From contig NZ_CANMDS010000004.1 of assembly GCF_947496725.1 (NCBI RefSeq), positions 248,001 through 312,000 of the forward strand: DNA of 64,000 nucleotides, given 5' to 3'. Position numbers and translations under genes: made by a program. Numbering within the stretch: the first letter of the stretch is position 1; each line of letters opens with the position of its first letter. Below are positions 1,774 through 61,412 of this stretch, piece by piece. This DNA is from an uncultured Dokdonia sp. (lineage in GTDB: Bacteria; Bacteroidota; Bacteroidia; Flavobacteriales; Flavobacteriaceae). The notes below the pieces were generated by a model. The model was not told the origin of the DNA and ran no database searches. It saw only the letters and a list, made by a program, of their open reading frames with translations.

Positions 1774-3126
1774 ATGCGTACAAAATCATTGAAGAAGAAT
1801 AAGATAAACGTAGTAACTCTAGGTTGCTCAAAAAACGTTTATGATAGTGAGGTCTTAATGGGCCAGCTTAAAGCAAATGAGATGGATGTTGCTCACGAAG
1901 AAGATGGTAACATCGTTGTGATTAACACCTGTGGTTTTATAGATAATGCAAAAGAGGAGTCTGTAAACACCATTCTTGAGTATGTAAAGCAAAAGGAAGA
2001 AGGCGATGTAGACAAGGTATTTGTTACAGGATGTCTTTCTGAGCGTTATAAGCCGGACCTTCAAAAGGAGATTCCAGATGTAGATCAGTATTTTGGAACA
2101 ACAGAGCTACCAGGATTACTTAAAGCACTTGGAGCAGACTATAAGCACGAGCTTATAGGTGAGCGTATTACAACTACGCCAAAAAACTACGCCTACTTAA
2201 AAATAGCCGAAGGCTGTGATCGCCCTTGTTCTTTCTGCGCAATTCCTTTAATGAGAGGTAAGCACAAGTCAAAATCTATTGAGCACCTCGTAGTAGAAGC
2301 AAAAAAGCTTGCTGCAAACGGCGTGACAGAGTTAATCCTTATCGCACAAGATCTTACGTATTACGGTCTTGATTTGTATAAAAAACGTAACCTAGCAGAG
2401 CTTCTTGAAAACCTTGTTCAAGTAGAAGGTATAGAATGGATTCGTTTGCATTATGCATTTCCTTCTGGTTTCCCGGTAGATGTACTTGATGTGATGAAGC
2501 GTGAGCCTAAGGTGTGTAATTACCTTGATATTCCGTTGCAACACATTGCAGATCCTATCTTAAAATCTATGCGACGTGGTACAACAATGGCAAAGACAAA
2601 TGCGTTGTTAGAACGCTTTCGCGAAAGCGTACCAGAGATGACCATAAGAACTACGCTTATTGTAGGATATCCTGGAGAAACCGAAGAAGATTTTCAAACG
2701 CTGAAGCAATGGGTAAAAGATCAACGTTTTGAGCGTTTAGGATGTTTTACATACTCACACGAGGAAAATACACACGCATATAATCTAGAAGATGATGTGC
2801 CAGAGGATGTGAAAATGGATCGTGCAAACCAGATTATGGAGATCCAATCACAAATCTCTTGGGAGCTCAATCAGCAGAAGATAGGGAAGGAGTTTAAAAT
2901 TGTTGTAGATCGTAAAGAAGGAAACTTCTTTATAGGTCGTACAGAATTTGACTCACCAGATGTAGATAATGAGGTGCTAGTTGATGCGACTAAGTTTTAT
3001 TTAAAAACTGGAGACTACGCAATGGTAAAAGTAACAGAGGCAGAAGATTTTGATCTCTATGCAGAGCCACTTGTAGCCCTAGAGCGACCACAAGCACTAC
3101 ACGCAAAACGTGCTACTAAAAAATAG
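1774..3126 (+). CDS. rimO: ribosomal protein S12 methylthiotransferase RimO
   Basis: Radical-SAM enzyme that adds a methylthio group to the conserved aspartate of ribosomal protein S12. 450 residues from the chosen ATG. The N-terminal UPF0004 domain has cluster cysteines C18 (in TLGCSKN), C53 and C87. The radical-SAM domain has C148-x3-C152-x2-C155 (CDRPCSFC), and the C-terminus is a TRAM-like beta domain. Its relative MiaB has a different N-terminal signature; TLGCSKN and the overall length favour RimO. A purine-rich AAAAGGAAGG lies just before the start. A perfect copy of the repeated palindrome at 2615 is read here as RFRES. Confidence 0.93.
   Translation: MRTKSLKKNKINVVTLGCSKNVYDSEVLMGQLKANEMDVAHEEDGNIVVINTCGFIDNAKEESVNTILEYVKQKEEGDVDKVFVTGCLSERYKPDLQKEIPDVDQYFGTTELPGLLKALGADYKHELIGERITTTPKNYAYLKIAEGCDRPCSFCAIPLMRGKHKSKSIEHLVVEAKKLAANGVTELILIAQDLTYYGLDLYKKRNLAELLENLVQVEGIEWIRLHYAFPSGFPVDVLDVMKREPKVCNYLDIPLQHIADPILKSMRRGTTMAKTNALLERFRESVPEMTIRTTLIVGYPGETEEDFQTLKQWVKDQRFERLGCFTYSHEENTHAYNLEDDVPEDVKMDRANQIMEIQSQISWELNQQKIGKEFKIVVDRKEGNFFIGRTEFDSPDVDNEVLVDATKFYLKTGDYAMVKVTEAEDFDLYAEPLVALERPQALHAKRATKK
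2615..2628. repeat. palindrome GCTTTCGCGAAAGC, copy 1 (inside rimO)
   Basis: Perfect 14-bp palindrome, extending to 18 bp (ACGC...GCGT, 2613-2630). Read as R-F-R-E-S in RimO, the only copy in the window that uses this frame. Confidence 0.95.
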
Positions 3127-3146
3127 GAAGTAGTAAATTAATTTAC

Positions 3147-3186
3147 AAAAAGCCTTTTGGAACAAATGTTTTGAAAGGCTTTTTTG
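3147..3186 (+). terminator. intrinsic terminator of rimO
   Basis: Arms AAAAGCCTTT and GAAAGGCTTTT separated by a short loop, followed by a T run. Confidence 0.8.
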
Positions 3187-3211
3187 TGTGTAAGAGTTTG
3201 TTTGCAAGGCT

Positions 3212-3219
3212 TACATTTG
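3212..3219 (+). promoter_or_regulatory. -7 promoter element of the propeller lipoprotein gene
   Basis: TACATTTG, an exact TAnnTTTG match, 22 bases before the start codon. Confidence 0.5.
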
Positions 3220-3241
3220 TAGCACTAAAAAAGCTTTTTTT

Positions 3242-4486
3242 ATGCGTATTATTTGTCTAGTATTTTTTGCTTTAATTCTTATTACTTCTTGTAAAGAGTC
3301 AAATCAAACAGAGATTGAACCAGTAACAGAGCAGCCAGCAATAGCAGCGTCTACTACTAATTCATCACTCACTGCGATACAACTGCCCTCTACAGGAAAA
3401 TCTCATTTACCTAGACTCAAGTCGAGTGGCGGTAAATTACATATGACTTGGGTGGAGCAAGAAGACAAGATGGCAATTTTAAAATATGCTAGTTACGATA
3501 GTGCCAAGTGGAGCCAACCTAGAACCATTACATCTGGAGATAATTGGTTTGTAAACTGGGCAGATTTTCCAGCCCTAGGAGTAAATGGTGATTATGTGCT
3601 GACTAATATCTTAGAAAAATCTGCAGAGGGCACTTATGATTATAATATAAAGCTTCAATTATCAAAAGGCGATGTGATTATTAAAGATGATTTCCTACTC
3701 AATACAGATGGCGTAGATGCAGAGCACGGTTTTGTATCTATACAAGCATATGATGGAGGTTTTTATGCTACTTGGCTTGATGGTAGAAATACAAAAAACG
3801 AAGACAAGAGTAAAAACCAAATGACGCTCCGCAATGCCTACATAGATTTAGCGGGAAATATAACTCAAGATACAGAGATAGATAGTCGCGTTTGTGACTG
3901 CTGTAATACAGCAACAGCTATTACAAATAATGGACCGGTTGCCGTGTACAGAGATCGCTCAGACACCACACCAGAGATACGAGATATGGCAATCGTGCGA
4001 TGGGTAGATGGAGCGTGGTCAAAACCTATGGTTATAGGTAATGATAATTGGGAACTTAACGGTTGCCCCGTAAACGGACCTGCAATAGCAACCAAAGAAG
4101 AAAATGTGGTGGTGAGTTGGTTTACTGCAGAGGGTGATGCTCCTAGAGTGCTCACCGCTTTTTCAAATGATAATGGAGCCTCTTTTGGAGGTGCAATCCG
4201 TATAGATAACGGAAACGCAATAGGTAGAGTAGATACAGATTTTATGAGTGATGGTAGCGCTCTCATCTCGTGGTTAGAACCAATGGTTGAAAACGTTGTA
4301 CTACAAGTAGCACGAGTATATGTAGATGGCACACACGATGCCCCAGTGACAGTAACCAATACCTCTGCCGAACGACAAAGCGGTTTCCCACAACTAGAAG
4401 TTGTAGGCGATTCGATTTTTGTCGCCTGGACAGATCTTGATGGTGACAACAGCGAGGTCAAGATGGTGAGGTTTGAGATGGACTAG
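3242..4486 (+). CDS. sialidase-like beta-propeller lipoprotein
   Basis: 414 residues beginning MRIICLVFFALILITSCKES, a lipoprotein signal with lipobox ITSC (Cys17). The body has repeating strands of the type LHMTWVEQ, FYATWLDGR, VVVSWFTAEG, ALISWLEPM and IFVAWTDLDGD, as in BNR/sialidase-fold beta propellers. A CDCC cysteine cluster lies mid-protein, followed by VYRDRSD. No full set of sialidase catalytic residues can be assigned by eye, so binding or hydrolysis of a glycan is only suggested. It shares a bidirectional terminator with the convergent M14 peptidase gene. Confidence 0.75.
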   Translation: MRIICLVFFALILITSCKESNQTEIEPVTEQPAIAASTTNSSLTAIQLPSTGKSHLPRLKSSGGKLHMTWVEQEDKMAILKYASYDSAKWSQPRTITSGDNWFVNWADFPALGVNGDYVLTNILEKSAEGTYDYNIKLQLSKGDVIIKDDFLLNTDGVDAEHGFVSIQAYDGGFYATWLDGRNTKNEDKSKNQMTLRNAYIDLAGNITQDTEIDSRVCDCCNTATAITNNGPVAVYRDRSDTTPEIRDMAIVRWVDGAWSKPMVIGNDNWELNGCPVNGPAIATKEENVVVSWFTAEGDAPRVLTAFSNDNGASFGGAIRIDNGNAIGRVDTDFMSDGSALISWLEPMVENVVLQVARVYVDGTHDAPVTVTNTSAERQSGFPQLEVVGDSIFVAWTDLDGDNSEVKMVRFEMD

Positions 4487-4525
4487 CCTAGTTTTCCCAA
4501 TAAAGCGCCCTATTCCACAACAGTG

Positions 4526-4626: not shown

Positions 4627-7116
4627 CTACAACCTAAACTTCCCATTATTGGTCAAGAAAATAGCATTGGTAAAGAATAGCTTTCCATTGTGCCAGAACG
4701 CTCTAAAAAGTGGGTCGTCTACCATATAGATAACGCTTCCGCGCCCCATACGTTCTTCTCCAAAAATAAGAGAGTTGCTTAGTTTTCCTTTTGCCGTTTC
4801 TCCTGCAAATCCTGCTACATTCTCTACCTCTTCAGGAATCCACGCTACATTGTAGCCACGATCCAGATATGAGTAGGAATTGCTTCCTAGCTTTAAACTG
4901 TAGTACGTGTCTGGATAGCCAAAAGCCATAGGGTGCGTCGTATCTACTTTAGTCTTAAAGATAGAACCTGTGATAAAGTTTGTAGTACTTGCATTCTCAC
5001 GATCTGCATATGGAGTTAGGTTTTCTTTCTTGTCGCTTTTTTCGGTATCGCTGCCGCCGGTATTTCTTTTTATTGAAAATCCAGATTTTCCAGCGAGGCT
5101 TCCTACAGCGTTTGCTAGTGCAATTACTTTACCGCCACCACGCACAAAGTCTTTTACCTTGTCAAGGTTACTTTCATTAAGTACGCTTCCGTACCAGCCG
5201 CTAGGCATCACGAGCACATCAAATTCATCAAGATTTACACGCCCTAGCTTATCTGCATTTATAGAAGTCACTGGGTACTGTAATGTCTGTTCAAAAAAGT
5301 ACCACGTAGCTCCATAACTCAATGATGAGGTTGCATCTCCTTTAAGTAATGCAATTTTTGGCGGATTGATAAGCTTTACTTGTGACGACCCAAAATCTGG
5401 TCCAGAGCTTGCAAATGAGGTTGTCGTAGCGGTAAGGGCTCTGTTATGCTTTCGCGAAAGCGTACTCAACACCTCATTAAAATCTTCACGTCCCAGATTA
5501 TCACTTTTTGTGATGATTAAAGAACCGCGCTCGTAAGAAACTCCATTATTTACAAAGGGTTGCTCGCTAAAACGTACTCTAATACCTTCCTTAAGAAGTC
5601 CTGCTAGAAACTGTGCATCATCAAGACTATTCCACTTCCCGATGTAGCCCGCTACATTCGTGCTTGCTGTGGTTGCATTGGTTTTAAAAGGGCTTGCGGC
5701 ATTTGCTTTTACAAGTGATGTGCTTGCCACGGCATTAAGACCGTAAGCGTGTGGTAAATTCCACGCGGTGATATCATAAGTGAGCGGTGTGCTTAGTTTT
5801 GCATCTGGCTCAAAAAGTGCCTTTACCATTTTTCCTTTTGGCTGGTCTGTACTTATCACCATTGCTGTGTCATAGCTCATACTACCTTGACCGTTTGAGG
5901 TGTAGTTAAAACCTGTTGCCTTTCCGTTTGAGGCAAAGCCATAGTTTATCTCGTGCTTGTCCATTAAGTCGGCTAGCGCTTTGAGATTATCTACATTACC
6001 AGAAAGTACGTAGCTTTTATATTTGAGATTGTTGTTATTAAAGTATGCTTTAAACTCTGAGTTGAGCTTTGCAGCATTTTTTACAGAAATCTCTACGGTA
6101 GAGAGTCCTGTGGTTTTGTGGTGTGCTACACGATCTACTAGCGTGAGTTCATAACCTCGATCTGTGTCAATACCTAAACCGGCACGACCGTGACCTGCTT
6201 GTTCATAGGTCATCCCTATTGCTCCCATAAAGGTAGGGTAGGTGTCACCGTAAGAAGGGTAGAGTAAGTCAAAACTCTCTCTTGTAAAAAACAGCCAACC
6301 TTCCTTATCAAAATAGCGTGCGTGATTTGCTCCTATTTGCGTTTGGAAATCCATCTGCCAGTCTGTGATAATCTCGTGATATGGCTCTGCTGCAGGAGCA
6401 AAATAATAAGGGTTGTTTATTCCTTGCTCGTGAAAGTCTACGTGCACGTGTGGCATCCACTTGTTATATACTTTTAATCGTTGTTGTGACTCTACTTGTG
6501 ATGCCCACGCCCAGTCGCGGTTAAGGTCAAAAAGGTAGTGATTAGGTCTTCCTCCTGGCCACGGCTCATCGTGCTCTGCAGCTACTTGTGCTGGGTCGTA
6601 AGGTGTAGACGCTACTTGGTTAAACCAGTTTGCATAGCGATCACGCCCGTCTGGATTTACACAAGGATCCATAATTATAACAGCATCTTTTAACCATTCT
6701 TTTTTTGACGTAATTAACTCATATAGAGTCACCATAGAAGCCTCTGTAGATGATGCTTCATTACCGTGCACGTTATAAGAAAGCCAGACTATTGCCTTGT
6801 CAGCCGTACCAGAGTTGCCTGTTGCAATACCCGTTTGCTCAAGGTTTGCCTTGCGTATATTTTCTAGATTGCTATGGTTTGCGCTTGTGGTAATAAGAGC
6901 ATATGTAAGAGGTCTACGCTCGTTAGTTTTACCATATTCTTGATAGGTGACTAGGTCACTATTTTCGGCTACGTGTTCAAAGTAGCGCACCACGTCTGCG
7001 TGGCGTGAGAACTGTGTTCCTATCTCATAACCCAGAAATTCTGATGGAGATTGTACTTGAGCGGTAAGTAATGTTGTGAGAAATAAGGCGACAAAAAAGC
7101 TGTAGATTCTGAGCAT
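4627..7116 (-). CDS. secreted M14-family zinc carboxypeptidase with C-terminal GATase1-like domain
   Basis: The start is the ATG complementary to 7114-7116, giving MLRIYSFFVALFLTTLLTAQ, a clear signal peptide; the open frame runs on to 7164 without a signal. 829 residues. The M14 zinc site is seen as HGNE (His117, Glu120 of this form) in LSYNVHGNEASS and as the later His in HVHVDFHE. The C-terminal third contains DVLVMPSGW and FVRGGGKVIALANA, like the class I glutamine amidotransferase-like fold appended to many Bacteroidota M14 proteins. It probably trims peptides in the periplasm or outside. A palindrome copy (5448) is read as LSRK. A second M14 protein lies at 29184-30935. Confidence 0.88.
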   Translation of the reverse strand: MLRIYSFFVALFLTTLLTAQVQSPSEFLGYEIGTQFSRHADVVRYFEHVAENSDLVTYQEYGKTNERRPLTYALITTSANHSNLENIRKANLEQTGIATGNSGTADKAIVWLSYNVHGNEASSTEASMVTLYELITSKKEWLKDAVIIMDPCVNPDGRDRYANWFNQVASTPYDPAQVAAEHDEPWPGGRPNHYLFDLNRDWAWASQVESQQRLKVYNKWMPHVHVDFHEQGINNPYYFAPAAEPYHEIITDWQMDFQTQIGANHARYFDKEGWLFFTRESFDLLYPSYGDTYPTFMGAIGMTYEQAGHGRAGLGIDTDRGYELTLVDRVAHHKTTGLSTVEISVKNAAKLNSEFKAYFNNNNLKYKSYVLSGNVDNLKALADLMDKHEINYGFASNGKATGFNYTSNGQGSMSYDTAMVISTDQPKGKMVKALFEPDAKLSTPLTYDITAWNLPHAYGLNAVASTSLVKANAASPFKTNATTASTNVAGYIGKWNSLDDAQFLAGLLKEGIRVRFSEQPFVNNGVSYERGSLIITKSDNLGREDFNEVLSTLSRKHNRALTATTTSFASSGPDFGSSQVKLINPPKIALLKGDATSSLSYGATWYFFEQTLQYPVTSINADKLGRVNLDEFDVLVMPSGWYGSVLNESNLDKVKDFVRGGGKVIALANAVGSLAGKSGFSIKRNTGGSDTEKSDKKENLTPYADRENASTTNFITGSIFKTKVDTTHPMAFGYPDTYYSLKLGSNSYSYLDRGYNVAWIPEEVENVAGFAGETAKGKLSNSLIFGEERMGRGSVIYMVDDPLFRAFWHNGKLFFTNAIFLTNNGKFRL
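5448..5461. repeat. palindrome GCTTTCGCGAAAGC, copy 2 (inside M14 peptidase gene)
   Basis: Perfect copy, read on the minus strand as T-L-S-R-K-H. Confidence 0.95.
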
Positions 7117-7211
7117 TTGGTTGGTTTTAGCAAAAGCTAAAGCTATAAAAAGAGCTCGCCGCAAATCAGCGTTTTAACGTTTTTTTGGGAAAACTCGCAA
7201 TTTATCAGAAT

Positions 7212-7237: not shown

Positions 7238-8833
7238 ATGCCAACCGACTGTCTGCCGTACCGAGAAACGGGGTATTTTTCTAATCTTATCACAAACTAT
7301 CTAGATCAAGAAGAAGCACTTAAGCCCTTTTATCACAGATTTCCTACAGCAGATAATCTTATCAAACAGGCAGAAGAGAAAGGGCAATTTTTTAGTCCGC
7401 TTTCGCGAAAGCGTTTATACGATTCCCTTACCGCGCAATATAAAAATACAAACACCTCTGCCGAGACGCAGCTCAATCTAGAGCACCTTGCCAGCGAAAA
7501 TACATTTACCATCACCACAGGGCACCAGCTCAATTTATTTACGGGGCCGCTCTATTTTTTATATAAAATTATCTCTGTGATTAATCTCTGCAAGGAGCTT
7601 AAAGAGAAAGATCCAGACCGCAATTATGTGCCTATTTACTGGATGGCGACAGAAGATCACGATTTTGACGAGATTAATTACTTCAATTTTCAAGGTAAAA
7701 AAGTGCAGTGGAATCGTGAGGACGGTGGCGCCGTAGGCGAACTCTCAACCGATGGACTGGCTGAGGTACTAGCATTATTTAAAACACAGCTAGGGACTTC
7801 AAGAAATGCGGAGTACCTCTCAAAACTTTTTAACGATGCATATCTCAATCACGATAATCTGGCAGATGCAACTCGCTATTTAGGTAACGAACTGTTTGGC
7901 GAGTACGGTCTTGTCATAGTAGATGGTAACGACTCAGGACTTAAAGAATTATTTGCTCCTTATGTACAACGAGAATTGCTAGAGGGCGTGTCGCACGCAA
8001 AGGTGACACAGCAAACCGAGCAACTCACTGCGCTAGGGTATCCAGAGCAAGTACACCCTCGTGAGATTAACTTGTTCTACATCACAAAAGGCATCCGTGA
8101 GCGTATTATCAAAGTGGATGATATGTATGTGGTAAATGATACAGAAATCCGCTTTCGCGAAAATGAGATACTCGACGAGCTTGCCAACCATCCAGAACGG
8201 TTCTCGCCTAACGCCTTGCTGAGACCACTTTTTCAAGAAGTGATTTTGCCGAATCTTTGTTACATAGGTGGAGGCGGAGAGCTGGCGTACTGGTTCCAAC
8301 TGAAAACATATTTTGAAGAAGTAGGAGTTCCATTTCCGGCATTACTACTTCGTAACTCGGCATTAATACGTACCGAAAAGCAACGTACAAAAGCCGAAAA
8401 TCTAGGCGTGTCGTTACCAAATTTATTTCTAAAACAAAACGAACTTATCAACCGAAAGGTGCGTGCCATCTCAAATATAGAGATAGACTTTTCTGCACAA
8501 CGCAGCTTCTTAAAAGAGCAGTTTAAAGCAATGCACTTACTAGCCGAAGAGACAGATGCTAGTTTTATAGGAGCCGTAAAAGCTCAAGAAGTAAAGCAAC
8601 TCAAAGGTTTAGAAAACTTAGAGAGTAGATTGCTGCGCGCACAAAAGCGTAAACTAAGTGATCACGTACAACGTCTAGTAGATTTACAAAACGAGGTATT
8701 CCCAATGCAAAGTCTGCAAGAAAGAAATACCAACTTCTCACAGTTTTATTTAGAATTTGGCGAGCAACTCATCCCTGAGTTAGTAAATGCGCTGGAGCCG
8801 CTAGGCGGCGAGTTTACGGTGGTTACTTTGTAG
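7238..8833 (+). CDS. bshC: bacillithiol biosynthesis cysteine-adding enzyme BshC
   Basis: 531 residues, the usual family length, full-length match from LPYRETGYFSNLITNYL through TTGHQLNLFTGPLYFLYK and YWMATEDHDFDEI to a helical C-terminus ending GGEFTVVTL. BshC condenses cysteine with GlcN-malate as the last step of bacillithiol synthesis. bshA and bshB are not in this window, and the flanking genes are unrelated. It contains one perfect palindrome copy (7399, read as LSRKR) and a decayed copy at 8151 (GCTTTCGCGAAAA). Confidence 0.93.
   Translation: MPTDCLPYRETGYFSNLITNYLDQEEALKPFYHRFPTADNLIKQAEEKGQFFSPLSRKRLYDSLTAQYKNTNTSAETQLNLEHLASENTFTITTGHQLNLFTGPLYFLYKIISVINLCKELKEKDPDRNYVPIYWMATEDHDFDEINYFNFQGKKVQWNREDGGAVGELSTDGLAEVLALFKTQLGTSRNAEYLSKLFNDAYLNHDNLADATRYLGNELFGEYGLVIVDGNDSGLKELFAPYVQRELLEGVSHAKVTQQTEQLTALGYPEQVHPREINLFYITKGIRERIIKVDDMYVVNDTEIRFRENEILDELANHPERFSPNALLRPLFQEVILPNLCYIGGGGELAYWFQLKTYFEEVGVPFPALLLRNSALIRTEKQRTKAENLGVSLPNLFLKQNELINRKVRAISNIEIDFSAQRSFLKEQFKAMHLLAEETDASFIGAVKAQEVKQLKGLENLESRLLRAQKRKLSDHVQRLVDLQNEVFPMQSLQERNTNFSQFYLEFGEQLIPELVNALEPLGGEFTVVTL
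7399..7412. repeat. palindrome GCTTTCGCGAAAGC, copy 3 (inside bshC)
   Basis: Perfect copy, read as P-L-S-R-K-R. Confidence 0.95.
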
Positions 8834-9394: not shown

Positions 9395-9847
9395 CTATAA
9401 ATTCAACTGCCTTATCCCTTCATAAGCTACAATTCCCACGGCATTTGCGAGATTTAGGCTTCTGATGTGTTCGCTAAATAATGGGATTTTATAAAGTTGG
9501 TCGGGGTGTTTTTCGGTGATTTCTTTTGGGAGTCCTTTAGATTCTTTTCCAAAGACGAGAAATAGGTCCTCTTCAAAAGGAATGTCATAATGTGACTTTG
9601 TGCCGTGACTTGAAAGAAAGACCATTTTCGCGAAAGCGTTCTTTTTAAAAAAGTCATCTGTATTATCATAATACTGTACGTCTAGATGCTGCCAGTAATC
9701 AAGACCTGCGCGTTTAAGGCGGGTGTCGTCTATCTCAAAACCAAAGGGTTTTACAAGGTGCAACTTGCAGCCAGAACCGAGGGCAAGCCTACCTATGTTA
9801 CCTGTGTTGTTTGGAATTTCTGGATTGATGAGTACAATATTGAGCAT
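9395..9847 (-). CDS. trmL: tRNA (cytidine/uridine-34-2'-O)-methyltransferase TrmL
   Basis: SPOUT-class methyltransferase of 150 residues, the usual TrmL size. Motifs: INPEIPNNTGNIGRLALG near the start, LVFGKESKGLP in the middle, and IPLFSEHIRSLNLANAVGI, which forms the knotted AdoMet site. It methylates the wobble nucleotide of certain tRNA-Leu species. Half of the repeated palindrome (9626-9638) is read here as NAFAK. Confidence 0.92.
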   Translation of the reverse strand: MLNIVLINPEIPNNTGNIGRLALGSGCKLHLVKPFGFEIDDTRLKRAGLDYWQHLDVQYYDNTDDFFKKNAFAKMVFLSSHGTKSHYDIPFEEDLFLVFGKESKGLPKEITEKHPDQLYKIPLFSEHIRSLNLANAVGIVAYEGIRQLNL

Positions 9848-13579: not shown

Positions 13580-14562
13580 GATTTTGGAAGGTTTTTTGTG
13601 ATTTCTATAGGGTCAAAAGTACTACTTTCTCTCGCGCCGTGTTCAGTCACCCATTTTGCGGTTTCTTGTAATCCTAGTGCAAGTGTTGTGGCTGGTTTTG
13701 GGCTAAAGATTTCTGTAAATTTTGAGTGGTCTGCATAGGCGTGTACTACTTCCTCGCGTTGTTCAAGGTGGTTGATAGTCACTTCTTTTTTCATAGCAAG
13801 TTCTACTTCTTTAGCTAGATCATTTACCGTGTTTTCGGTATCTGCGCCTATGTTAAAGATTTGGTTGTCCGCTTTCGCGAAAGCGTAACTAGCCGCAATA
13901 TATGGTGCCACATCATCTATGTAGGTAAAAGCACGGGTTTGATTTCCGTCGCCAAAGATGGTAAGCGGTTCATCCTTTAACATCTGATTCATAAAAATAC
14001 CCACTACATTGCGATACTTATCTCCAATGTTTTGTCCAGGCCCATACACATTGTGCGGACGAAAGATAATATAGTCTAGCCCAAACATTTTATGTGCATT
14101 ATCCAGATCCATCTCTACCGCATATTTTGCAATACCATATGGGTCTTCGGGTTGTGGTTTTTGAGATTCTTTAAGTGGTAATTCTTGAGTTCCATACACA
14201 GCAATAGAGCTTGTAAAGATGAACTTCTTTATGTTGTGATTAACCGCAGCATTAATGAGGTTGATACTCCCAATGAGGTTATTCTCATAATTGAACTTAC
14301 GTATAAAATGGCTCAACCCTTCGGCGGCATATGCAGCTAGATGATAGATGTAATCTATGTGATGTTGTGCAAATATCTCATCTATAAGTGTGGTGTCTGT
14401 AATGCTTCCTTCTATAAAAATCGCACCTTGAGGTACATTGCTTGTAAAGCCGCCAGAGAGGTCGTCAAGTATGATTACTTGGTGATGTAAAGCTAGTAAA
14501 TGACGAGCAACGTGGCTTCCTATAAAGCCAGCGCCACCGGTAACTAATGAGGTTATTTGCAT
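13570..14562 (-). CDS. NAD-dependent sugar-nucleotide epimerase/dehydratase
   Basis: 330-residue extended SDR. TGGAGFIGSHVA is the NAD-binding GxxGxxG motif, FTSSIAVYG supplies the catalytic Ser/Thr region, and YGIAKYAVE is YxxxK. It resembles UDP-glucose 4-epimerase-like enzymes; the exact sugar cannot be read from sequence. The perfect palindrome at 13871 is read as AFAKA inside a helix. A non-coding copy (14604) separates it from crtZ. Confidence 0.87.
   Translation of the reverse strand: MQITSLVTGGAGFIGSHVARHLLALHHQVIILDDLSGGFTSNVPQGAIFIEGSITDTTLIDEIFAQHHIDYIYHLAAYAAEGLSHFIRKFNYENNLIGSINLINAAVNHNIKKFIFTSSIAVYGTQELPLKESQKPQPEDPYGIAKYAVEMDLDNAHKMFGLDYIIFRPHNVYGPGQNIGDKYRNVVGIFMNQMLKDEPLTIFGDGNQTRAFTYIDDVAPYIAASYAFAKADNQIFNIGADTENTVNDLAKEVELAMKKEVTINHLEQREEVVHAYADHSKFTEIFSPKPATTLALGLQETAKWVTEHGARESSTFDPIEITKNLPKSWL
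13871..13884. repeat. palindrome GCTTTCGCGAAAGC, copy 4 (inside epimerase gene)
   Basis: Perfect copy, read on the minus strand as Y-A-F-A-K-A-D. Confidence 0.95.
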
Positions 14563-14603: not shown

Positions 14604-14617
14604 GCTTTCGCGAAAGC
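14604..14617. repeat. palindrome copy 5 (between crtZ and epimerase genes)
   Basis: Part of a 20-bp perfect palindrome TACGC...GCGTA at 14601-14620, in the 90-base gap downstream of crtZ. Confidence 0.95.
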
Positions 14618-21834: not shown

Positions 21835-21848
21835 GCTTTCGCGAAAGC
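21835..21848. repeat. palindrome copy 6 (intergenic, before terminator)
   Basis: Perfect copy between the FKBP-like gene stop and the terminator 5 bases further on. Confidence 0.95.
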
Positions 21849-26543: not shown

Positions 26544-26557
26544 GCTTTCGCGAAAGC
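26544..26557. repeat. palindrome copy 7 (between the two transketolase genes)
   Basis: Core of a 20-bp perfect palindrome TACGC...GCGTA (26541-26560), in the 47-base gap between the two transketolase subunits, close to the second start codon. Confidence 0.95.
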
Positions 26558-28597: not shown

Positions 28598-29216
28598 TAA
28601 AGTTTTTGTCAATGATATTCCTATTATTCTATCTACCGAAAAGGTAATAGGTAAACAGTATAAGACGATTCCGATTAAGACGGTTAAGATTAAAAAATTA
28701 ATCAAAAAACTGTATGATGGAGAACAGCTATACATCAATCTATATCACCCTAAAGAAGAAAAACTTCTTAAACATTTACGCAAGAAGCTTAAGCTCGTGA
28801 TAGCTGGTGGTGGTCTTGTTTATAATGACAAAAAGGAAATTCTTTTTATACACCGCAACGGCAGGTGGGACCTCCCTAAAGGAAAGATAGAAAAGAAAGA
28901 AGGCATAGAAGAATGTGCTCTGAGAGAAGTAGAGGAGGAGACCGGTGTAAAAGGACTTACTATTAATAGACCGCTTGAGATTACTTATCACGTTTTTAAA
29001 CGCAACGGTAAATTTAGACTTAAAGAGACTTTCTGGTATGAAATGCATACAAGCTCTACAGAGGCTCTTGTACCGCAAACTAAAGAGGGTATAAAAAAAG
29101 CAAAGTGGCTCAACTTTGAAAAAGCACAAAAAGCGCTTGATAAATCTTACGAAAATATCAAGCTCATCTTCCCGAGTACATATCTAGTTAAGCATCCTAA
29201 CGATAGGGTAGCGTAG
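28593..29216 (+). CDS. NUDIX hydrolase
   Basis: 207 residues from the ATG at 28593 (MYKVFVNDIPIILS). The open frame extends upstream to 28470, but only as the opposite strand of pyrE. NUDIX box G-x5-E-x7-RE-V-EE-x-G is complete in GKIEKKEGIEECALREVEEE followed by TGV. The N-terminal 60 residues form an extra Lys-rich domain. Substrate unknown. Its 3' end overlaps the convergent M14 peptidase gene by 33 bases, and its start is 7 bases from that of pyrE. Confidence 0.9.
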   Translation: MYKVFVNDIPIILSTEKVIGKQYKTIPIKTVKIKKLIKKLYDGEQLYINLYHPKEEKLLKHLRKKLKLVIAGGGLVYNDKKEILFIHRNGRWDLPKGKIEKKEGIEECALREVEEETGVKGLTINRPLEITYHVFKRNGKFRLKETFWYEMHTSSTEALVPQTKEGIKKAKWLNFEKAQKALDKSYENIKLIFPSTYLVKHPNDRVA

Positions 29217-30935: not shown

Positions 30936-30973
30936 ATGATGGTTGGATTGTGCTGTGAAGATACAAATTGACA

Positions 30974-31033: not shown

Positions 31034-34000
31034 TTATTTTTTTACAACTCGTTTTACAAGTTGTGTTTGCCCTGCCGTTATGTGCATAAAATATACTCCA
31101 GCTTCATAATATCTGAGTGATATGTTTGTGTTTATACCGCTACTAGATAACTCTATACGCTCAACAATACGACCTCTTATATCTGTTATAACCATATAAT
31201 CTAGTGGAGTATTACTCAAGTTTTTGAGAGTAATGTCTCCTGGCGTGGGGTTAGGGAATAGTATGATGTCGCTTTCGCGTAAGCTTAAATCATCTACACT
31301 TAGCGGGTTGTTAGTCACTGTGATTGTAAACTCACAGGTAACCATATTTCCATCTTCGTCAAAACCTGTAAGCGTTACCGGAACCTCTTGAGGAGCATCT
31401 ATGATCGTGCCAGCAACAGGTTGTTGAGAGACGTTTGTAAAGGTGCCACCACCACAGTTATCTGTAAGTGATTCTATGTAGTTTTCTATCTCATAAAGGT
31501 CAAAGAGATCTGCCTCTACGGTAAAATCTTCTTGACAAGAGATGAGTCCAAAATCATCTGCATCTACAAGAACAGTCGCTTCACAAGTGGCAGTGTTTCC
31601 GTTTTGATCTGTAACGGTGAGTGTCACGATATTTTCTCCCACATCTGCACAACCAAACTCTGTTATGTCTAGGCTGAGTGTTACCTCTCCACCACAGTTG
31701 TCTGTACTACCATTGTCTATCATATCTGGTGTTATACTAGCTGTACCAGTATCTTCATCAAGTATAACAACAATGCTTTGACAGATTGCCGTAGGTGGAG
31801 CCTCATCTACTACAGTGACATTTACTGTACAAGTGGTTACATTACCTTTTGCATCTGTAACGGTAATATTTACAACATTTTCGCCTAGATTAGAACAATC
31901 AAAAGTGTCTACGTCAAACTCAATATCTGAAGTAGGCGTGCAGTTATCAGGAACTCCTAGAAGATCGTCATCTGGATCTGCAAAGCTTATCTCAAATCTC
32001 AATAGTTGACCAACGTCACCTTGTGTATTATCACAAACAGATAGACTCCAGTTTCCATTTATTTGCTCACCAGCAAAAGTATCTGCAAAGGTTCCTCCTT
32101 CTGGAGAATAAATTCCGTTTACAAGACCTGTTGCCATTGTGATGTCTTCTCCATCATCATCAAAGGTTGCATTTTCATAACCCTGTGCATTTCCGCCATT
32201 ACCTGCAGAGAGTACAAGTTCTGTACCTTGTGGTGATGTAAGGGTTAAGTCTAGGTCACCTACAAAAGAGTGATCCAGATCTACAATGACCGTAGCAATG
32301 CGATAGGCGTCACCTATAGTGCCCTCAAGATCTACTGCTGCTGTAGATGTGGTAGGTCCTCCGGCACAATTTGTACCTCCTGTGCCTGTCATCGGGATAC
32401 TTTCTGGCACTCCGTCACCAGTAAAAGGAATAGCCTGTACAGGTACTAGGTTACCTATTACATCTTCTGGAGTAAGAATTGCGATACCATTTTCATCTAG
32501 TGAGATGGTTGCATCCATACATTCTGGTGTGGGTGCAGTAACATCTATAACTGTCACAATCGCTTCACAAGTAGCCGTATTGCCAGCATTATCTGTAGCA
32601 GTAACTATTACCACATTTGGACCGGTGTTTGCACAGCCAAATTCTGATATATCTAATTCTAAATTATCTATAAGGCAAGTAGAAGATGTATCTGCAAGTA
32701 CATCTTCTGGTATAATGGTAACCATACCATTCTCATCAAGCTCAACAGTGATATCTTGACAAGTGATTTGCGGTATAACACTACTTGTAACCGTTACAAT
32801 AGCCTCGCAACTTGCTGTATTTCCATTCTCATCTGTAGCCGTGAGGGTAACCACGTTTTCACCAAGATTTTCACACGTAAATGAATCAATATCTATACTT
32901 AAACTTACTGGCGTACAGTTATCACTTGTGCCACCATCAATATCTTCTGGGGTTATGGTTGTCATTCCATTTTCATCTAGTGCTATCTCAATATTTTGAC
33001 AAAACATTCTAGGTGCTAGATCATCTATAATTGTGATTGTAAAAGAACAAGTATCTAGGTTACCATTACCATCTTCTACAGTAAAGGTGTTAGTAGTGGT
33101 ACCTACGGGGAATGGGTTGCCGCTTGCAAAACCAGCAGTTTGTGTAACAGTACCACCGCCAACACAGTTCTCATTTGTAAATGGTCCTTCGTAAGAAATA
33201 ATTGCCCCACAACCCGATGCCGCATCAGAAAATACAATTTCTGAAAAACCTGTATTTCCATCTCCATAATTAGATAGTACTTCCATACGGATTGTAGTTG
33301 CCGTAATAGGGGTGAATGTAAATACCTCTGGTGCGCTCGGTGCGTTTTCTTCCGCTTGCGCGAAAACTATAGGCGCTCCCTCTACATCTATATACGTACT
33401 ACCATCTATACTATAAGAAATCAAAACATCTCTTATACCTGAAGTTCCATCTGGCCCCGGACCACCACCATTTTGATTCCAGAAAGAGAATCCGCTCACG
33501 GTTGTCTCTGCTCCTAAATCAAAATCAATTGTACCAGTACTTCCTTCTCCTATCCAAGAATTTTCTGGAGTAGAAGGAGCGTGATTTGTAGTAAGGCTAG
33601 GAGAGGTGTTTAGGCCCGTTCCGTCTATTGCATTTGAAAGCGTACTGCCAAAGGCGCTATTATATGTTGTAGTAGCTCCCGTAGGTACGATAGGGTTAGA
33701 AATTTCAGATAGATTAATAACCAAATCTTCTGGACAGGTAATTTCTATAGGTTGGTTATTAACTACTGTTATCACTGCTTCACAAGTAGCAGTGAGACCT
33801 TGCTCATCTGTTACTGTTAGAATAACAGTGTTTTCACCTAGGTTATCACAAGTAAACTCAAACACATCTAGTTCATAAGTTAGTTCGCCACAAACAGCAG
33901 TACTGCCTCCATCTACTAGTACTGGGTCTACGGTAATCATTCCTTCTTCATCTAGTTCTACTATAATGTTTTGACATACAGCTGTAGGTGCTATGTTGGT

Positions 34001-44053: not shown

Positions 44054-44450
44054 ATTAATCCCCCAATTAATGAAGACTAAATGTATACACTATAAGTGGT
44101 TTGTATAAAGTGAGTTAGGTCAGAAATTTCCGTCAGAAATCGCGCAATAGGCTAGGGGTAAATGCCCTGTTTAGCTCAAATCAAATACTATTTATATATA
44201 CGCTTTCGCGAAAGCGTAATTCTTCTCACATCGCGCATTAAGTACGTCTATAAGGCATATTTGAGTAGATGTCTCACATCACTTTCTGTAAGACATTAAA
44301 AACTTGCTGTTATAGCTTATTGCCCCTTTGGTAAATACGTATTACACAATTTGATGCAATAATCGCTATACACTTTACCGAAATGAGATGCGTGGACACT
44401 GTTTTGATAAACAAATAATTAGCCACTTTTTACGTGATGTAATCTAGCTT
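44054..44450. other. 397-base non-coding stretch upstream of the giant gene
   Basis: No plausible gene. It holds a possible -7 element TACATTTA on the minus strand (44078-44085), a short direct repeat GTCAGAAAT near 44119 and 44134, and palindrome copy 9. The UDG-like gene ends at its far side without an obvious terminator. Confidence 0.6.
44202..44215. repeat. palindrome copy 9 (upstream of giant gene)
   Basis: Core of a 20-bp perfect palindrome TACGC...GCGTA (44199-44218), about 150 bases upstream of the giant gene start. Confidence 0.95.
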
Positions 44451-46830: not shown

Positions 46831-46844
46831 GCTTTCGCGAAAGC
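46831..46844. repeat. palindrome copy 10 (intergenic, beside terminator)
   Basis: Perfect copy between the pseudouridine synthase stop and its terminator. Confidence 0.95.
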
Positions 46845-51296: not shown

Positions 51297-51310
51297 GCTT
51301 TCGCGAAAGC
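51297..51310. repeat. palindrome copy 11 (trpB-trpA gap)
   Basis: Perfect copy 6 bases past the trpB stop. Confidence 0.95.
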
Positions 51311-52516: not shown

Positions 52517-53142
52517 AGCTGCAATACTTTTTTAAATTCGGTTAAATTTTCAATATCTTTTAATCCTGGTTTATCCTCAAACTTGCTATTTACGTCTAGT
52601 GCGATAATAGGTAAATCTGTTGCCAGTATTTCTTTTACTTTTTCTACTTCTTCTAGTCCTATGCCGCCACTTAAAATGATAGGCGTTTGGGATGTGTAAT
52701 TTTTTAAAACACTCCAGTCAAAGGTGTAGCCGTTGCCTCCTTTTTCTTTTCCCTTTGTGTCAAAAAGGAAAGCATCTACAAGGCCCTCGTAAGGTGTGAG
52801 CTGCTCAAAGTCAAAACTGTCTTTGATTCCAAAAACTTTCCAAATCTTGAGGTCACGACTGCGCTCGACCAGACAACCTTGAAGCTCTTTTATGTATTCA
52901 GGGGATTCGCTCCCGTGTAACTGGATTACGTTGAGGTTGTGCTGTGTTATTTTCGCTTTCGCGAAAGCAATATCAGCATCTACAAAAACCCCTACGCGGT
53001 CGATTCCCTCAGGTAATTCTGGAATCTCTAGGTTGCCAAAATCTCGTTTGCTCTTCTCATAAAATATAAAGCCAAGATAGTCTGGCTGCAACGCAGCGAC
53101 CTCTTGTGTGTTATATTTCATACCGCATATTTTGATTTTCAT
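52513..53142 (-). CDS. trpF: phosphoribosylanthranilate isomerase TrpF
   Basis: 209 residues. [35 protein letters not shown] and [10 protein letters not shown] are the TIM-barrel isomerase signatures; [16 protein letters not shown] closes the site. Two unusual segments: residues 59-64 (AFAKAK) come from palindrome copy 12, and residues 90-98 (CLVERSRDL) from another near-palindrome at 52849-52874, lengthening the helix region. Confidence 0.92.
52849..52874. repeat. near-palindromic segment within trpF
   Basis: GGTCACGACTGCGCTCGACC: GGTC-x-CGA arm against TCGACC arm around CTGCGC. It is in frame and reads [20 protein letters not shown]-type sequences are common dispersed repeats in other bacterial genomes. 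Confidence 0.6.
52955..52968. repeat. palindrome copy 12 (inside trpF)
   Basis: Perfect copy, read on the minus strand as I-A-F-A-K-A-K. Confidence 0.95.
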
Positions 53143-53181: not shown

Positions 53182-53580
53182 TTAAGAATTGTTTTGGTGA
53201 GGATCTAAATCTTTAATCTTAGGGATTGCTAGAAACTCTTTCCAGTCTTCTTCACGTACCTGATCCTTACTAAGACTTACTTTATTTGTTTGCGAAACAA
53301 GTACAAAATCTCCAGCCACGTGTTTAATCTCTATAAGTTGATCAATAGAGATTCTTTTTTTCTTTAATTCTCCAACGATTAAAACACCATTGGTAATCTT
53401 TGCATATCCTTGATGTTGATATATTATAAATATTATAATATGCACGACACCAAGCACGAGGTACGAGTACTTAGTGAAATTGTTTTCATTTTCAATAAAG
53501 GATATAATACCAAGTACACTCCATACAATGGCCATTACTCCATAAATAATAAGTTGTTTCTTTTTATATCTTAACTTCAT
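53182..53580 (-). CDS. small membrane protein inside the trp operon, unknown
   Basis: 132 residues. Two membrane helices (LIIYGVMAIVWSVLGIISFI and YSYLVLGVVHIIIFIIY) and a soluble end with strands (ITNGVLIVGELKKKRISIDQLIEI), reminiscent of PH-like YdbT-type membrane proteins. No tryptophan-related function is known to me. It overlaps the trpC stop by 4 bases and precedes trpF by 39 bases. Confidence 0.7.
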   Translation of the reverse strand: MKLRYKKKQLIIYGVMAIVWSVLGIISFIENENNFTKYSYLVLGVVHIIIFIIYQHQGYAKITNGVLIVGELKKKRISIDQLIEIKHVAGDFVLVSQTNKVSLSKDQVREEDWKEFLAIPKIKDLDPHQNNS

Positions 53581-54353
53581 AATTGCTTTATAAAAGTAGC
53601 GGCACTTTCACCTGGGTTATCTGTTTTCATAAAATTTTCACCTATAAGGAAACCTTGAAAACCGTGTGGCTTTAATTCCTTGATCGCCTCTACAGAACTG
53701 ATACCACTTTCTGACACTTTTACAAACTCATCTGGAATTTGCTTGATGAGTTCTTTGCTGGTCTCTAGGCTTACTTCAAAGGTTTTTAGGTTTCGGTTGT
53801 TTATGCCTAGCATATCTACAGATTTCATAATTGACTTCTGTAATTCTTCTTCATTATGAGATTCACAAAGCACATCGAGACCAAGACCTTTTGCAAAGGT
53901 TGAAAACTGCTCTATTTGCTTTCGCGAAAGCGTAGCTGCAATAAGTAATATAGCATCTGCACCGTAGGCTTTGGCTTCAAGAATCTGGTATTCATCTACT
54001 ATAAACTCCTTACGCAATAGCGGAAACTGTGCTGCTGCTCTGGCAAGTAATAAGTCGTCTAGCGAGCCACCAAAATATTTTCCATCTGTAAGTACAGACA
54101 TCCCGCTCACGCCTGCCTGCTCATAACCGCTTGCGACATCTTGCACGCTCAGGCTGTTGTTTATAACAGACTTACTAGGAGATCTTCTTTTATGCTCTGC
54201 GATAATCCCGGAGCCTGCGCTTACTGCTTTTGCAAGTGATACGGTAGCTCTCTCAAAAAGAACAGATTGCTCTAGCTGGCTCACAGGGATGAGACTTTTT
54301 CTTAAAGCTACTTCCTTGATTTTATCTGCTGTAATTTTATCTAGTATGGTCAT
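53577..54353 (-). CDS. trpC: indole-3-glycerol phosphate synthase TrpC
   Basis: 258 residues. IIAEHKRRSPSKSVIN holds the catalytic Lys; VLTDGKYFGGSLDDL, LLRKEFIVDEYQILEA, LGINNRNLKTFEV and VSESGISS follow in the family order. Closes the indole ring. The palindrome at 53918 is read as TLSRKQ. One base separates its start from the trpD stop. Confidence 0.95.
   Translation of the reverse strand: MTILDKITADKIKEVALRKSLIPVSQLEQSVLFERATVSLAKAVSAGSGIIAEHKRRSPSKSVINNSLSVQDVASGYEQAGVSGMSVLTDGKYFGGSLDDLLLARAAAQFPLLRKEFIVDEYQILEAKAYGADAILLIAATLSRKQIEQFSTFAKGLGLDVLCESHNEEELQKSIMKSVDMLGINNRNLKTFEVSLETSKELIKQIPDEFVKVSESGISSVEAIKELKPHGFQGFLIGENFMKTDNPGESAATFIKQL
53918..53931. repeat. palindrome copy 13 (inside trpC)
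   Basis: Perfect copy, read on the minus strand as T-L-S-R-K-Q. Confidence 0.95.
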
Positions 54354-56452: not shown

Positions 56453-57850
56453 CTAAATATCTTCTGCGATGTCAAGTGCTTTATTAAGCGCTCCTAATTT
56501 GTTGTAAACTTCTTGTAATTCTTTAGCGGGATCACTGCCAGATACCACTCCAGCACCTGCTTGCCAGTGTAGGGTGTGATTTTTACTTAAGAAAGAACGT
56601 ATGATAATAGCGTGATTAAAATTACCGTAAAAATCCATAAAACCTATCGCTCCACCGTAGAAGGTGCGATTGCGGTTTTCATACTTCTCAAGTAGCTGCA
56701 TTGCCATATGCTTAGGCGCACCACTGAGTGTTCCTGCTGGAAAGGTGTCTGCTACCACTTGTAAGGTATTGCTACCCTCGTGCATTTGTCCCGTTACTTT
56801 ACTCACAAGGTGTATCACGTGTGAGAAAAACTGCACCTCACGATAGGTGTCTACCTTTACATCGTGACCATTGCGTGATAAGTCATTACGAGCAAGATCA
56901 ACGAGCATCACGTGTTCTGAGTTTTCTTTTTCGTCTTTGGCTAGTTCTTTTGCAAGTATGGCGTCTTGCTCATCATTACCGGTACGTTTAAAAGTACCTG
57001 CAATAGGGTGAATCTCTGCGAGACCGTCTTGCACAATAATCTGAGCTTCTGGTGATGAGCCAAAGATTTTATAATCTCCGTAGTCAAAGTAGAATAAATA
57101 TGGCGACGGGTTTACACTGCGTAAAGCCCTGTATACATTAAACTCATCTCCGGTAAATTGCTGCGAGAAGCGTTTACTAGGCACAATCTGAAAAACATCA
57201 CCACGCTGGCAGTGCTTTTTACAAGTTTCTACGAGTGCTTTATAATCTGCATCTGTGATGTTGCTGGTGAGTTCGTTCTTTCGGTTGAAGTTAAACTCTG
57301 CAAAGTTTTTTGATTTTAAAAGCTGCTCAATCTCATCGATATTATTGTCTCCCGTCGTGTTGTGGCAAAATATATGTGCCTCATTATTAAAATGATTAAT
57401 AGCGATAATATTTTGGTAAACGGCATAGTAAATATCCGGTATGTGGAGATCTCCTTCTTTTTTTGCGATTTCTATATCTTCAAAGTACTGCACAGAATCA
57501 TACGATAGGTAACCAAACAAGCCATTGTTTATGAATTTGTGTGCTGTCTTTGTAGATGAGAACGCTTTCGCGAAAGCGTCTAAAACCCCTACAACATTAG
57601 TCTCTGCTGTAATTGTAATTTCCTCCTTCTTGCCATCGGGAAATTGCTGTGTGATTATACCATCGCCCACGCTTATAGAAGCAATAGGGTTGCAGCATAT
57701 GTAAGAGAAGCTATTATCATTTGCGTGATAGTCACTACTCTCGAGCAGTAAACTATTAGGAAAACGATCGCGCAACCTTAAGTATACCGATACAGGAGTG
57801 ATGGTATCTGCTAGGAGTCTTTTTGAAAATGTAGTTAATTGATATTTCAT
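56453..57850 (-). CDS. trpE: anthranilate synthase component I TrpE
   Basis: 465 residues. LLLESSD (residues 34-40) carries the LLES tryptophan-feedback motif; the catalytic half has FQIVPSKRFSQQF, IAGTFKRTGNDEQD, HVMLVDLARNDLSR and FPAGTLSGAPKHMAM. First structural gene of the operon, behind the leader-peptide attenuator. The palindrome at 57564 is read as DAFAKAF. Confidence 0.95.
   Translation of the reverse strand: MKYQLTTFSKRLLADTITPVSVYLRLRDRFPNSLLLESSDYHANDNSFSYICCNPIASISVGDGIITQQFPDGKKEEITITAETNVVGVLDAFAKAFSSTKTAHKFINNGLFGYLSYDSVQYFEDIEIAKKEGDLHIPDIYYAVYQNIIAINHFNNEAHIFCHNTTGDNNIDEIEQLLKSKNFAEFNFNRKNELTSNITDADYKALVETCKKHCQRGDVFQIVPSKRFSQQFTGDEFNVYRALRSVNPSPYLFYFDYGDYKIFGSSPEAQIIVQDGLAEIHPIAGTFKRTGNDEQDAILAKELAKDEKENSEHVMLVDLARNDLSRNGHDVKVDTYREVQFFSHVIHLVSKVTGQMHEGSNTLQVVADTFPAGTLSGAPKHMAMQLLEKYENRNRTFYGGAIGFMDFYGNFNHAIIIRSFLSKNHTLHWQAGAGVVSGSDPAKELQEVYNKLGALNKALDIAEDI
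57564..57577. repeat. palindrome copy 14 (inside trpE)
   Basis: Perfect copy, read on the minus strand as D-A-F-A-K-A-F. Confidence 0.95.
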
Positions 57851-60426: not shown

Positions 60427-60448
60427 TTTAAAATAACTAGATACTACA

Positions 60449-60547: not shown

Positions 60548-60592
60548 AAATATAACAAGGGTACACTACCGTACTTATAATAAAGAAGAATT

Positions 60593-60898
60593 ATGAAAGA
60601 TCTTACAATCCCAGAATGGGAAGAAAAAATCGCTCAAGATAAAGACGCCGTAATACTAGACGTGCGTACAGAAGAAGAAACAGAAAATGGTATCATAGAA
60701 GGAGCAAAGGTTATAGATATATACCAAGGCCAAGGCTTTATTGATGAGGTAGAAAAACTAGATAAAGATAAAAACTACTACGTTTATTGTCGCTCTGGAG
60801 CACGTAGTGCTCAAGCGTGTGCACTTATGGGACAGCTAGGTTTTGAGACTACATATAACTTGCTAGGAGGCTATATGGCCTGGAGCGAAAATAACTAG
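60593..60898 (+). CDS. single-domain rhodanese-like protein (cytoplasmic)
   Basis: 101 residues. AVILDVRTEEETENGIIEGA and the active-site loop YVYCRSGARSAQ with Cys66. No signal peptide. Likely sulfurtransferase. Three bases before a second, exported rhodanese. Confidence 0.9.
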   Translation: MKDLTIPEWEEKIAQDKDAVILDVRTEEETENGIIEGAKVIDIYQGQGFIDEVEKLDKDKNYYVYCRSGARSAQACALMGQLGFETTYNLLGGYMAWSENN

Positions 60899-60901
60899 AG
60901 T

Positions 60902-61345
60902 ATGAGAAAGAAAGTAACTCACATTTGTAGTGTTATTGCAATTATGATGATGGCTTTATCTTGTAACCAAGCGACCTCACAGCAAGCATCGCCAGAAGCT
61001 TCAGTTAGTGAAGTGCAAGAGCAAAAGATAGTCATCAATCGCATTTCTTCAGATGAGCTTGAGACAGCGATGAGTGCTCAAGAAATCCAACTGGTAGATG
61101 TACGTACCGACCGCGAGTGGGAGAGTGGCCATATTAAGGGGGCAAAGCATTTTGAGATGAACAATGCAAACTGGCAGTCACAGCTAGAGACTCTAGATAA
61201 AGATGAGCCCGTATATGTATATTGTGCAAAAGGTGGTCGTAGTGCCAGATGTGCAAAACAACTAGAAGAGGCTGGTTTTACTACCATTTATGATCTTAAA
61301 GGTGGTCTCACCAGCTGGAAGGCTAGTGGCAAGACCGTAGAGTAA
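60902..61345 (+). CDS. rhodanese-like lipoprotein
   Basis: 147 residues. Signal with lipobox MALSC (Cys21), a Gln/Ser linker, then QLVDVRTDREWESGHIKGAKHF and the active loop YVYCAKGGRSARC. The pairing of a cytoplasmic and an exported rhodanese suggests handling of sulfane sulfur on both sides of the membrane; this is inference. Confidence 0.9.
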   Translation: MRKKVTHICSVIAIMMMALSCNQATSQQASPEASVSEVQEQKIVINRISSDELETAMSAQEIQLVDVRTDREWESGHIKGAKHFEMNNANWQSQLETLDKDEPVYVYCAKGGRSARCAKQLEEAGFTTIYDLKGGLTSWKASGKTVE

Positions 61346-61365
61346 CACATACTCATAAAAAGTAT

Positions 61366-61396
61366 AAACCCCATCTTAGTAGGATGGGGTTTTTTT
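61366..61396 (+). terminator. terminator of the rhodanese pair
   Basis: Arms AACCCCATC and GATGGGGTT, then a T run; palindrome copy 15 follows 3 bases later. Confidence 0.85.
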
Positions 61397-61398
61397 AC

Positions 61399-61412
61399 GC
61401 TTTCGCGAAAGC
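61399..61412. repeat. palindrome copy 15 (between convergent genes)
   Basis: Perfect copy between the rhodanese terminator and the di-heme peroxidase stop. Confidence 0.95.

Follow-up and report, generated by a model that had tools for sequence, protein, structure and literature searches.

What keeps a short palindrome in a bacterial genome at a density of about one copy every few kilobases? The question is raised by a 64,000-nucleotide stretch of an uncultured Dokdonia sp. (contig NZ_CANMDS010000004.1, positions 248,001 to 312,000; hereafter the window), in which the 14-bp palindrome GCTTTCGCGAAAGC occurs fifteen times. A preliminary description of this DNA had listed fifteen perfect copies, eight in genes and seven between them, with three extended to 20-bp TACGC...GCGTA palindromes. 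It had likened the motif to cyanobacterial HIP1, an uptake site or a protein-binding site rather than a transposon, and had considered a methyltransferase target possible. All fifteen copies were located, with the same genic and intergenic split under a simple gene caller and with the three 20-bp palindromes in place (Table 1), and 100 dinucleotide-preserving shuffles of the window yielded none. A literature search found the 14-mer in no paper, and of the papers retrieved with TTTCGCGAAA none, by title and opening of the abstract, concerned such a motif. In the reading that we prefer, and whose chances we rate as about even, the 14-mer forms the indispensable core of a site with dyad symmetry, read in the cell by a sequence-specific, probably dimeric putative protein with a role in DNA maintenance.

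The palindrome extends far beyond the window. The genome (3.29 Mb in 121 contigs) contains 905 copies, and none of the pattern read backwards, which bears out the earlier view of a genome-wide motif. All 17 other species of Dokdonia (g1) that were searched carry 369-903 copies each, the two lowest counts (369 and 385) belonging to genomes of 78% and 85% completeness. Eighteen other genera of the family were represented by one genome each, of which one had 578 copies, one had 6 and 16 had none; there were likewise none in 23 genomes of the order's other families. A family-wide draw of 397 genomes gave high counts only in g1 (905 and 857), g11 (578, 664 and 609) and g210 (408), with 1-19 copies in 74 of the remaining 391 and none in 317; 38 named genomes besides a Dokdonia metagenome-assembled genome (MAG), which has 740, had 0-4. 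Across the phylum, the 16-mer CGCTTTCGCGAAAGCG, present 711 times in the Dokdonia genome of the window, occurred once or twice in 10 of 394 other genomes and not in the rest. High counts are restricted to three genera of the family. These genera are not shown to form a single clade, because the ParB tree places g210 next to g1 and g11 elsewhere, whereas the tree of AddB-like proteins sets g210 also apart from g1 (support values were not examined in either tree).

The site has a sharply defined core with compositionally biased surroundings. In 400 kb of contig C1 of the same genome (12% of the genome), all 132 occurrences of TTCGCGAA were TTTCGCGAAA, and 120 of these were the full 14-mer. This sample held 4 one-mismatch and 13 two-mismatch forms, against 0.06 and 0.6 for permuted palindromes; perfect and one-off copies numbered 88 and 12 in G281, a genome of the non-sister genus g11, and 13 and 2 in G230 of g210. 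Flank composition was determined from 264 sites of the genome under study and the related G016, counting both sides (528 flanks). The base directly following the 14-mer is G in 89%, with a weaker consensus outward (T, A, A/C and so on); on the outward strand G is scarce as far out as about 25 bp, little signal persists beyond about 30, and the compositional extent of the site with its flanks is about 64 bp. Outward positions 4-13 are 72% A+C but 49% A+G, which identifies the axis of the bias as keto/amino rather than purine/pyrimidine. On C1, positions 4-25 are 65% A+C, equally in coding and intergenic copies. Strands entering the site in the 5'->3' direction are rich in G/T and poor in C over about 25 nt on either side. 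In G281 the same core, the next-base G (92%) and the G depletion recur, with somewhat different flank letters. Left and right flanks showed no covariation or pairing at the 264 sites, and an RNA hairpin or cruciform is accordingly unsupported.

Selection maintains the 14-mer even within genes. Of the 52 window copies that align in four close species, 51 are intact (G007, 13/13; G016, 13/14; G005, 13/13; G008, 12/12), with 2, 1, 2 and 3 further copies, respectively, unalignable; at the level of 84% identity all alignable copies are intact. Fourfold-degenerate positions inside the copies were changed in 0 of 22 cases in each of these species, as against 22.5%, 11.9%, 40.4% and 40.8% of such positions elsewhere (same order), in a test that can miss gains because the copies were selected as perfect in the window. 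Relative to G005 and G008, identity is 1.00 up to 7 bp from the centre and 0.84, near background, at 8-15 bp, so that the conserved block stops at the edge of the 14-mer. In G011, which is more distant, four copies can be aligned, two of them intact, and the other 11 are unalignable. Copies private to the four close species lie in non-aligning segments, and 1 of 12 private to G011 lies in an aligned one. The gene bshC illustrates how copies originate: the window and the Dokdonia MAG carry sites at different codons of this gene, 25 bshC loci of other genera align without gaps across both, and some of the residues encoded at the sites differ from those of most loci. The absence of gaps together with the residue changes shows that both sites arose by substitution, and hence that positions can turn over. 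Insertion, as of repetitive extragenic palindromic (REP) or BIME elements or of a mobile element, is rejected for these two bshC copies, the only ones examined in this way.

With respect to genes, 56 of the 120 copies on C1 are coding and 64 intergenic, although 84% of the bases are coding by our own gene caller; 34 of the 56 coding copies share the frame that reads A-F-A-K-A. Intergenic copies are distributed as 36 in 38.1 kb between tandem genes, 16 in 11.7 kb between divergent genes and 12 in 6.2 kb between convergent genes, the last being the densest per kb. The palindromy, the intergenic enrichment and this convergent peak would suit a dispersed repeat, terminator or RNA hairpin of the REP type. 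We nevertheless consider such an element extremely improbable, in view of the many coding copies, the copies between divergent genes, the substitutional origin of the bshC sites, and flanks that are T-rich before and A-rich after the site, the opposite of a terminator, and devoid of compensatory pairing.

The copies are also strikingly even in their spacing. On C1 the mean gap is 3285 bp with a coefficient of variation of 0.50, the variance-to-mean ratio per 20 kb is 0.14, below all of 2000 random placements, and there are 6 gaps under 1 kb as against 31 expected. In a 400-kb sample of G281, 88 copies had a coefficient of variation of 0.45 and a ratio of 0.20; 17 gaps shorter than 1 kb were expected there, and none occurs. 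The chromosome of G016, a single contig, was sampled all the way round in twenty 20-kb pieces, which held 3-9 copies each, 129 in total, with a ratio of 0.30 and no evident trend between origin and terminus of replication. Sample densities amount to one copy per 3.3-4.5 kb.

Over-representation and a fairly even distribution over genes and intergenic regions are also marks of DNA uptake sequences. On this alternative a surface receptor favours DNA bearing the palindrome, and biased uptake with recombination (molecular drive) accumulates it without any intracellular function. Fairly even spacing is the expected outcome of such drive according to passages of PMC7811141, and is cited likewise in part of PMC1939737. 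The intergenic excess (64 of 120 copies against about 16% of bases) and the lack of an evident origin-terminus pattern are in keeping with it, and TTTCCGAAG, an iterated oligomer of other genera, could be a dialect. Further, PMC7965970 reports natural competence in two Riemerella species, which it places in the Flavobacteriaceae; under its conditions Flavobacterium johnsoniae was, however, non-competent. We retain uptake as a possible, if on the whole improbable, explanation because it agrees with the even spacing and with possible dialects. Gradual molecular drive is hard to reconcile with the scarcity of one-mismatch forms: the graded excess of such forms that drive would leave is missing, whereas one-mismatch and perfect copies of a pasteurellacean uptake sequence number 947 and 438 in the account given in PMC1939737. 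The same account describes known uptake sequences as non-palindromic.

Phages and metal-efflux islands also carry the site. The 16-mer is present in 41 stretches of viral contigs, and 13 phage records, which were chosen for carrying the motif, total 306 kb with 45 copies, a density about half that of the host. The hosts of these phages may be motif-rich bacteria. Of 17 phage proteins compared with PHROGs, four had no match; the hallmark matches were portal, large terminase, head protease, major head protein and tail sheath in L250, tape measure and integrase in L165, head protease in L182, integrase and primase in L243, and a weak virion protein match in L183. The portal and terminase open reading frames (ORFs) of L250 contain sites, as does the protease ORF of L182. 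Within the bias of the sample, such positions in phage genes speak for a role inside the cell rather than one in uptake.

Around sporadic copies in other genera, 12 of 20 stretches share related blocks at 66-97% nucleotide identity across genera, which we read as probably mobile, and the other 8 have little or nothing in common. Among the shared blocks, the tests identified RND efflux, outer-membrane efflux, CusB-type fusion, P-type ATPase and Fur-family proteins; a histidine kinase and a DsbD-type protein came from other stretches. Heavy-metal efflux islands (L271-L274, L276, L278-L282, L284 and L288) are related across several genera of the family and have motifs at homologous places, one pair being exactly 933 bp apart. 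At five homologous island sites in up to eight elements, 19 sites are intact, 7 have 1-2 mismatches and the rest are more divergent; we take these 7 to have decayed outside motif-rich hosts, with unfinished gain as the alternative. The even spacing, the extent of about 64 bp, the restriction to three genera and the carriage by phages and metal-efflux islands add to what the preliminary description had noticed, while the behaviour of HIP1, uptake or protein-binding type, and not of a transposon, that it had proposed agrees with the counts, the relatives, the conservation and the silent-site constraint.

How might a site read within the cell work? A sharp palindrome conserved at silent positions, with no pairing of its flanks, fits a dimer reading double-stranded DNA. 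The even spacing and the rarity of close neighbours suit a task for which one site per few kilobases suffices. The putative reader would act on long-lived intracellular DNA, namely the chromosome, phages and mobile islands, and would require one site per 3-5 kb. Palindromy would let each site function in both directions, and selection would limit the length of gaps while redundant neighbours were not retained. Most likely, the sites would be regularly placed points of loading, anchoring or stopping, at which the protein could serve DNA-end processing and recombination or chromosome organisation. More speculatively, and in our judgement doubtfully, the palindrome could be a bidirectional 'self-DNA' signal in Bacteroidota, Chi-like or chromosome-anchoring, that phages and islands must carry to be treated as self. 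If a Chi-like or anchoring signal is indeed what it is, it may be the first described in Bacteroidota; a single search on this point found none there by title or opening of the abstract.

The keto/amino flanks suggest strand opening at the site, and for this reason we keep a specific form of the intracellular reading, in which the palindrome is a Chi-like signal recognised from either side by a helicase-nuclease that passes the 3' strand to RecA. RecA prefers G/T-rich DNA, and the G/T-rich, C-poor strands entering from both sides are those that a Chi-stopped enzyme would leave for it. The even spacing is close to Chi density, phages carry the site, and the Dokdonia genome encodes two PDDEXK_1 proteins that are AddB-like and AddA-like by length and domain only. 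Known Chi sites, in contrast, are shorter (5-8 nt) and non-palindromic; an AddB-like gene is present in 23 of 23 genomes searched, irrespective of the motif, and the AddB tree leaves the motif genera ungrouped (support values not examined). We rate a Chi-like role as unlikely.

The methyltransferase target envisaged in the preliminary description corresponds to a HIP1-like explanation, whereby an orphan DNA methyltransferase creates or uses the palindrome. In its favour, the 14-mer includes TCGCGA, and cyanobacterial HIP palindromes accompany methyltransferases for their inner sequences, according to portions of PMC4390886. However, the genome under study has no match to PF00145 (C5 methyltransferases) or PF01555 (N6/N4 methyltransferases), PF02086, PF05063, PF07669 and further families not having been searched. 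PF00145 is also without a match in nine of the 17 other members of the genus (two of the nine being incomplete), and PF01555 rises above the cut-off only in G027 and G230 among 15 motif-rich genomes. One-off forms are, moreover, far rarer than for the HIP1 decamer, with 5648 perfect and 1830 one-off copies in the excerpted figures of PMC1939737. We regard this explanation as very unlikely, and a link to either of the two methyltransferase families is rejected.

A Noc-like extra ParB paralogue was likewise rejected, none being common to the motif genera among 15 motif-rich and 21 motif-poor genomes; the latter have one PF02195 (ParB-family) protein in 16 cases and two in 5. By eye, the helix-turn-helix segment of ParB in the motif genera resembles that of motif-poor genera (the sequences being readable in frame). 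The parS consensus was absent within 3 mismatches from the 3.3-kb parB loci, those of motif-poor genera included, from which nothing is concluded.

Several observations weigh against a protein that reads the site in the cell. No reader was found among the families searched (PF00145, PF01555, PF02195 and AddB-like proteins). PF02195 is single in 14 of the 15 motif-rich genomes, with two in G010. A comparison of 20 AddB sequences yielded no column specific to the motif genera; the test is weak, since none emerged for 2000 randomly drawn groups of equal size either. The flanks lack base-by-base conservation, and the even spacing and possible dialects would equally fit uptake sequences. In 100 kb of G230, with only 13 copies, spacing was indistinguishable from random. 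Density falls in the large genomes of the genus: those of 3.3 Mb have about 0.27 copies per kb (905 and 899 copies), whereas one of 5.5 Mb has 0.16 (903) and one of 4.3 Mb has 0.13 (570). A need for fixed spacing does not predict this fall, which argues against a strict spacing rule. Several of the phage records look like versions of one phage.

Four kinds of known system come closest to the Dokdonia site. HIP1 (GCGATCGC) and the alternate HIPs of cyanobacteria are similarly highly iterated, lineage-restricted palindromes in genes and between them, whereas the Dokdonia site combines a 14-bp core with compositional flanks, occurs once per 3.3-4.5 kb in the samples rather than about every 1 kb and has almost no one-off forms. 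The uptake sequences of Pasteurellaceae (USS) and Neisseriaceae (DUS) share the even spacing, the coding and intergenic placement, the hundreds of copies and possibly lineage dialects, but the Dokdonia motif is a perfect palindrome, with few one-mismatch forms, and is present in phage genes. Chi of RecBCD and AddAB shares kilobase-scale density, a G/T-rich strand, and presence in genes and phages; the Dokdonia motif is palindromic and about twice as long, and a link to AddB was not found. The NBS of Noc and parS of ParB are palindromes of 14-16 bp with TTTC...GAAA arms, like the Dokdonia site, in tens of copies. The Dokdonia motif differs in numbering hundreds, in showing no terminus exclusion in the samples and in lacking an extra ParB-family protein common to its genera. 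What highly iterated palindromes such as HIP1 are for is discussed in PMC4390886, which reaches no settled answer. The Dokdonia palindrome offers a sharper case than HIP1, with an exact 14-mer, two common methyltransferase families absent, even spacing, purifying selection at silent sites and a contrast between genera. Members of the genus Dokdonia are culturable, so that the putative reader can be fished directly with a short duplex.

Table 1. Exact and near copies of the 14-bp palindrome in the 64-kb window (gene names marked Pfam rest on domain matches)
Feature	Position	Location	Remarks
14-mer, exact	2615..2628	Radical SAM/UPF0004/TRAM gene, MiaB/RimO type (1750-3126, +; Pfam)	Intact in G007, G016, G005, G008, G011
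14-mer, exact	5448..5461	M14 peptidase gene (4627-7164, -; Pfam)	Intact in G007, G016, G005, G008; not in G011
14-mer, exact	7399..7412	bshC (7238-8833, +; Pfam)	Indel-free against 25 loci of other genera
14-mer, exact	13871..13884	Epimerase gene (13570-14562, -; Pfam)	Not in G011
14-mer, exact	14604..14617	Intergenic	Part of 20-bp palindrome
14-mer, exact	21835..21848	Intergenic	
14-mer, exact	26544..26557	Intergenic	Part of 20-bp palindrome
14-mer, exact	29917..29930	ORF 29184-30974, -	No Pfam match
14-mer, exact	44202..44215	Intergenic	Part of 20-bp palindrome; alignable in G016 only, intact there
14-mer, exact	46831..46844	Intergenic	The only copy that aligns in a close relative (G016) without being intact there
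14-mer, exact	51297..51310	Intergenic	Intact in G007 and G005, unalignable elsewhere
14-mer, exact	52955..52968	ORF 52513-53142, -	
14-mer, exact	53918..53931	ORF 53577-54353, -	
14-mer, exact	57564..57577	Chorismate-binding/anthranilate synthase I gene (56453-57850, -; Pfam)	
14-mer, exact	61399..61412	Intergenic, between convergent ORFs	Alignable in G016 only, intact there
Near copy	8151..8164		2 mismatches, both in one outer arm
Near copy	9624..9637		2 mismatches, both in one outer arm
Near copy	31271..31284	Giant ORF	1 mismatch
Near copies	33354 and 36999	Giant ORF	2 mismatches each

Within the window, three of the four decayed copies named in the preliminary description were recovered, one with its start shifted (9626 to 9624), and the fourth, at 48831, is not within 2 mismatches. 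A giant ORF (31034-44053, 4339 aa) has no exact 14-mer and lies within the widest interval that separates neighbouring copies in the window, 14.3 kb. The GC content of the window ranges from 0.355 to 0.426 in 4-kb steps; together with BshC and the giant ORF it points to the Flavobacteriaceae.

Other iterated oligomers were encountered in related genera. TTTCCGAAG occurs 21 times in G116 C2:1-100000 (L439-L443) against 0.7 expected, 11 times in 21.6 kb of Psychroserpens damuponensis, in both orientations; the loci outside G116 are L074, L102, L110, L123 and L099, and 400 kb of the Dokdonia genome has none. It is non-palindromic, has flanks without keto/amino asymmetry and shows spacing compatible with random placement, and we therefore do not claim it as the same system, though it is possibly another lineage's signal of similar kind. 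GCTTCCGCGGAAGC, a variant palindrome in similar context, was seen twice in the Mesonia algae locus L089 and also in G312 and G093 (g73). With at most 13 copies per genome in the 397 family genomes, it is at most a faint variant. Mesonia algae L429-L433 contains an abundant different repeat with GTCATTTCGA and CTCAGTATGAC words. Finally, 40-65-bp pieces of the intergenic segment 4515-4585 of the window recur often in other species of the genus and resemble an unrelated repeat family.

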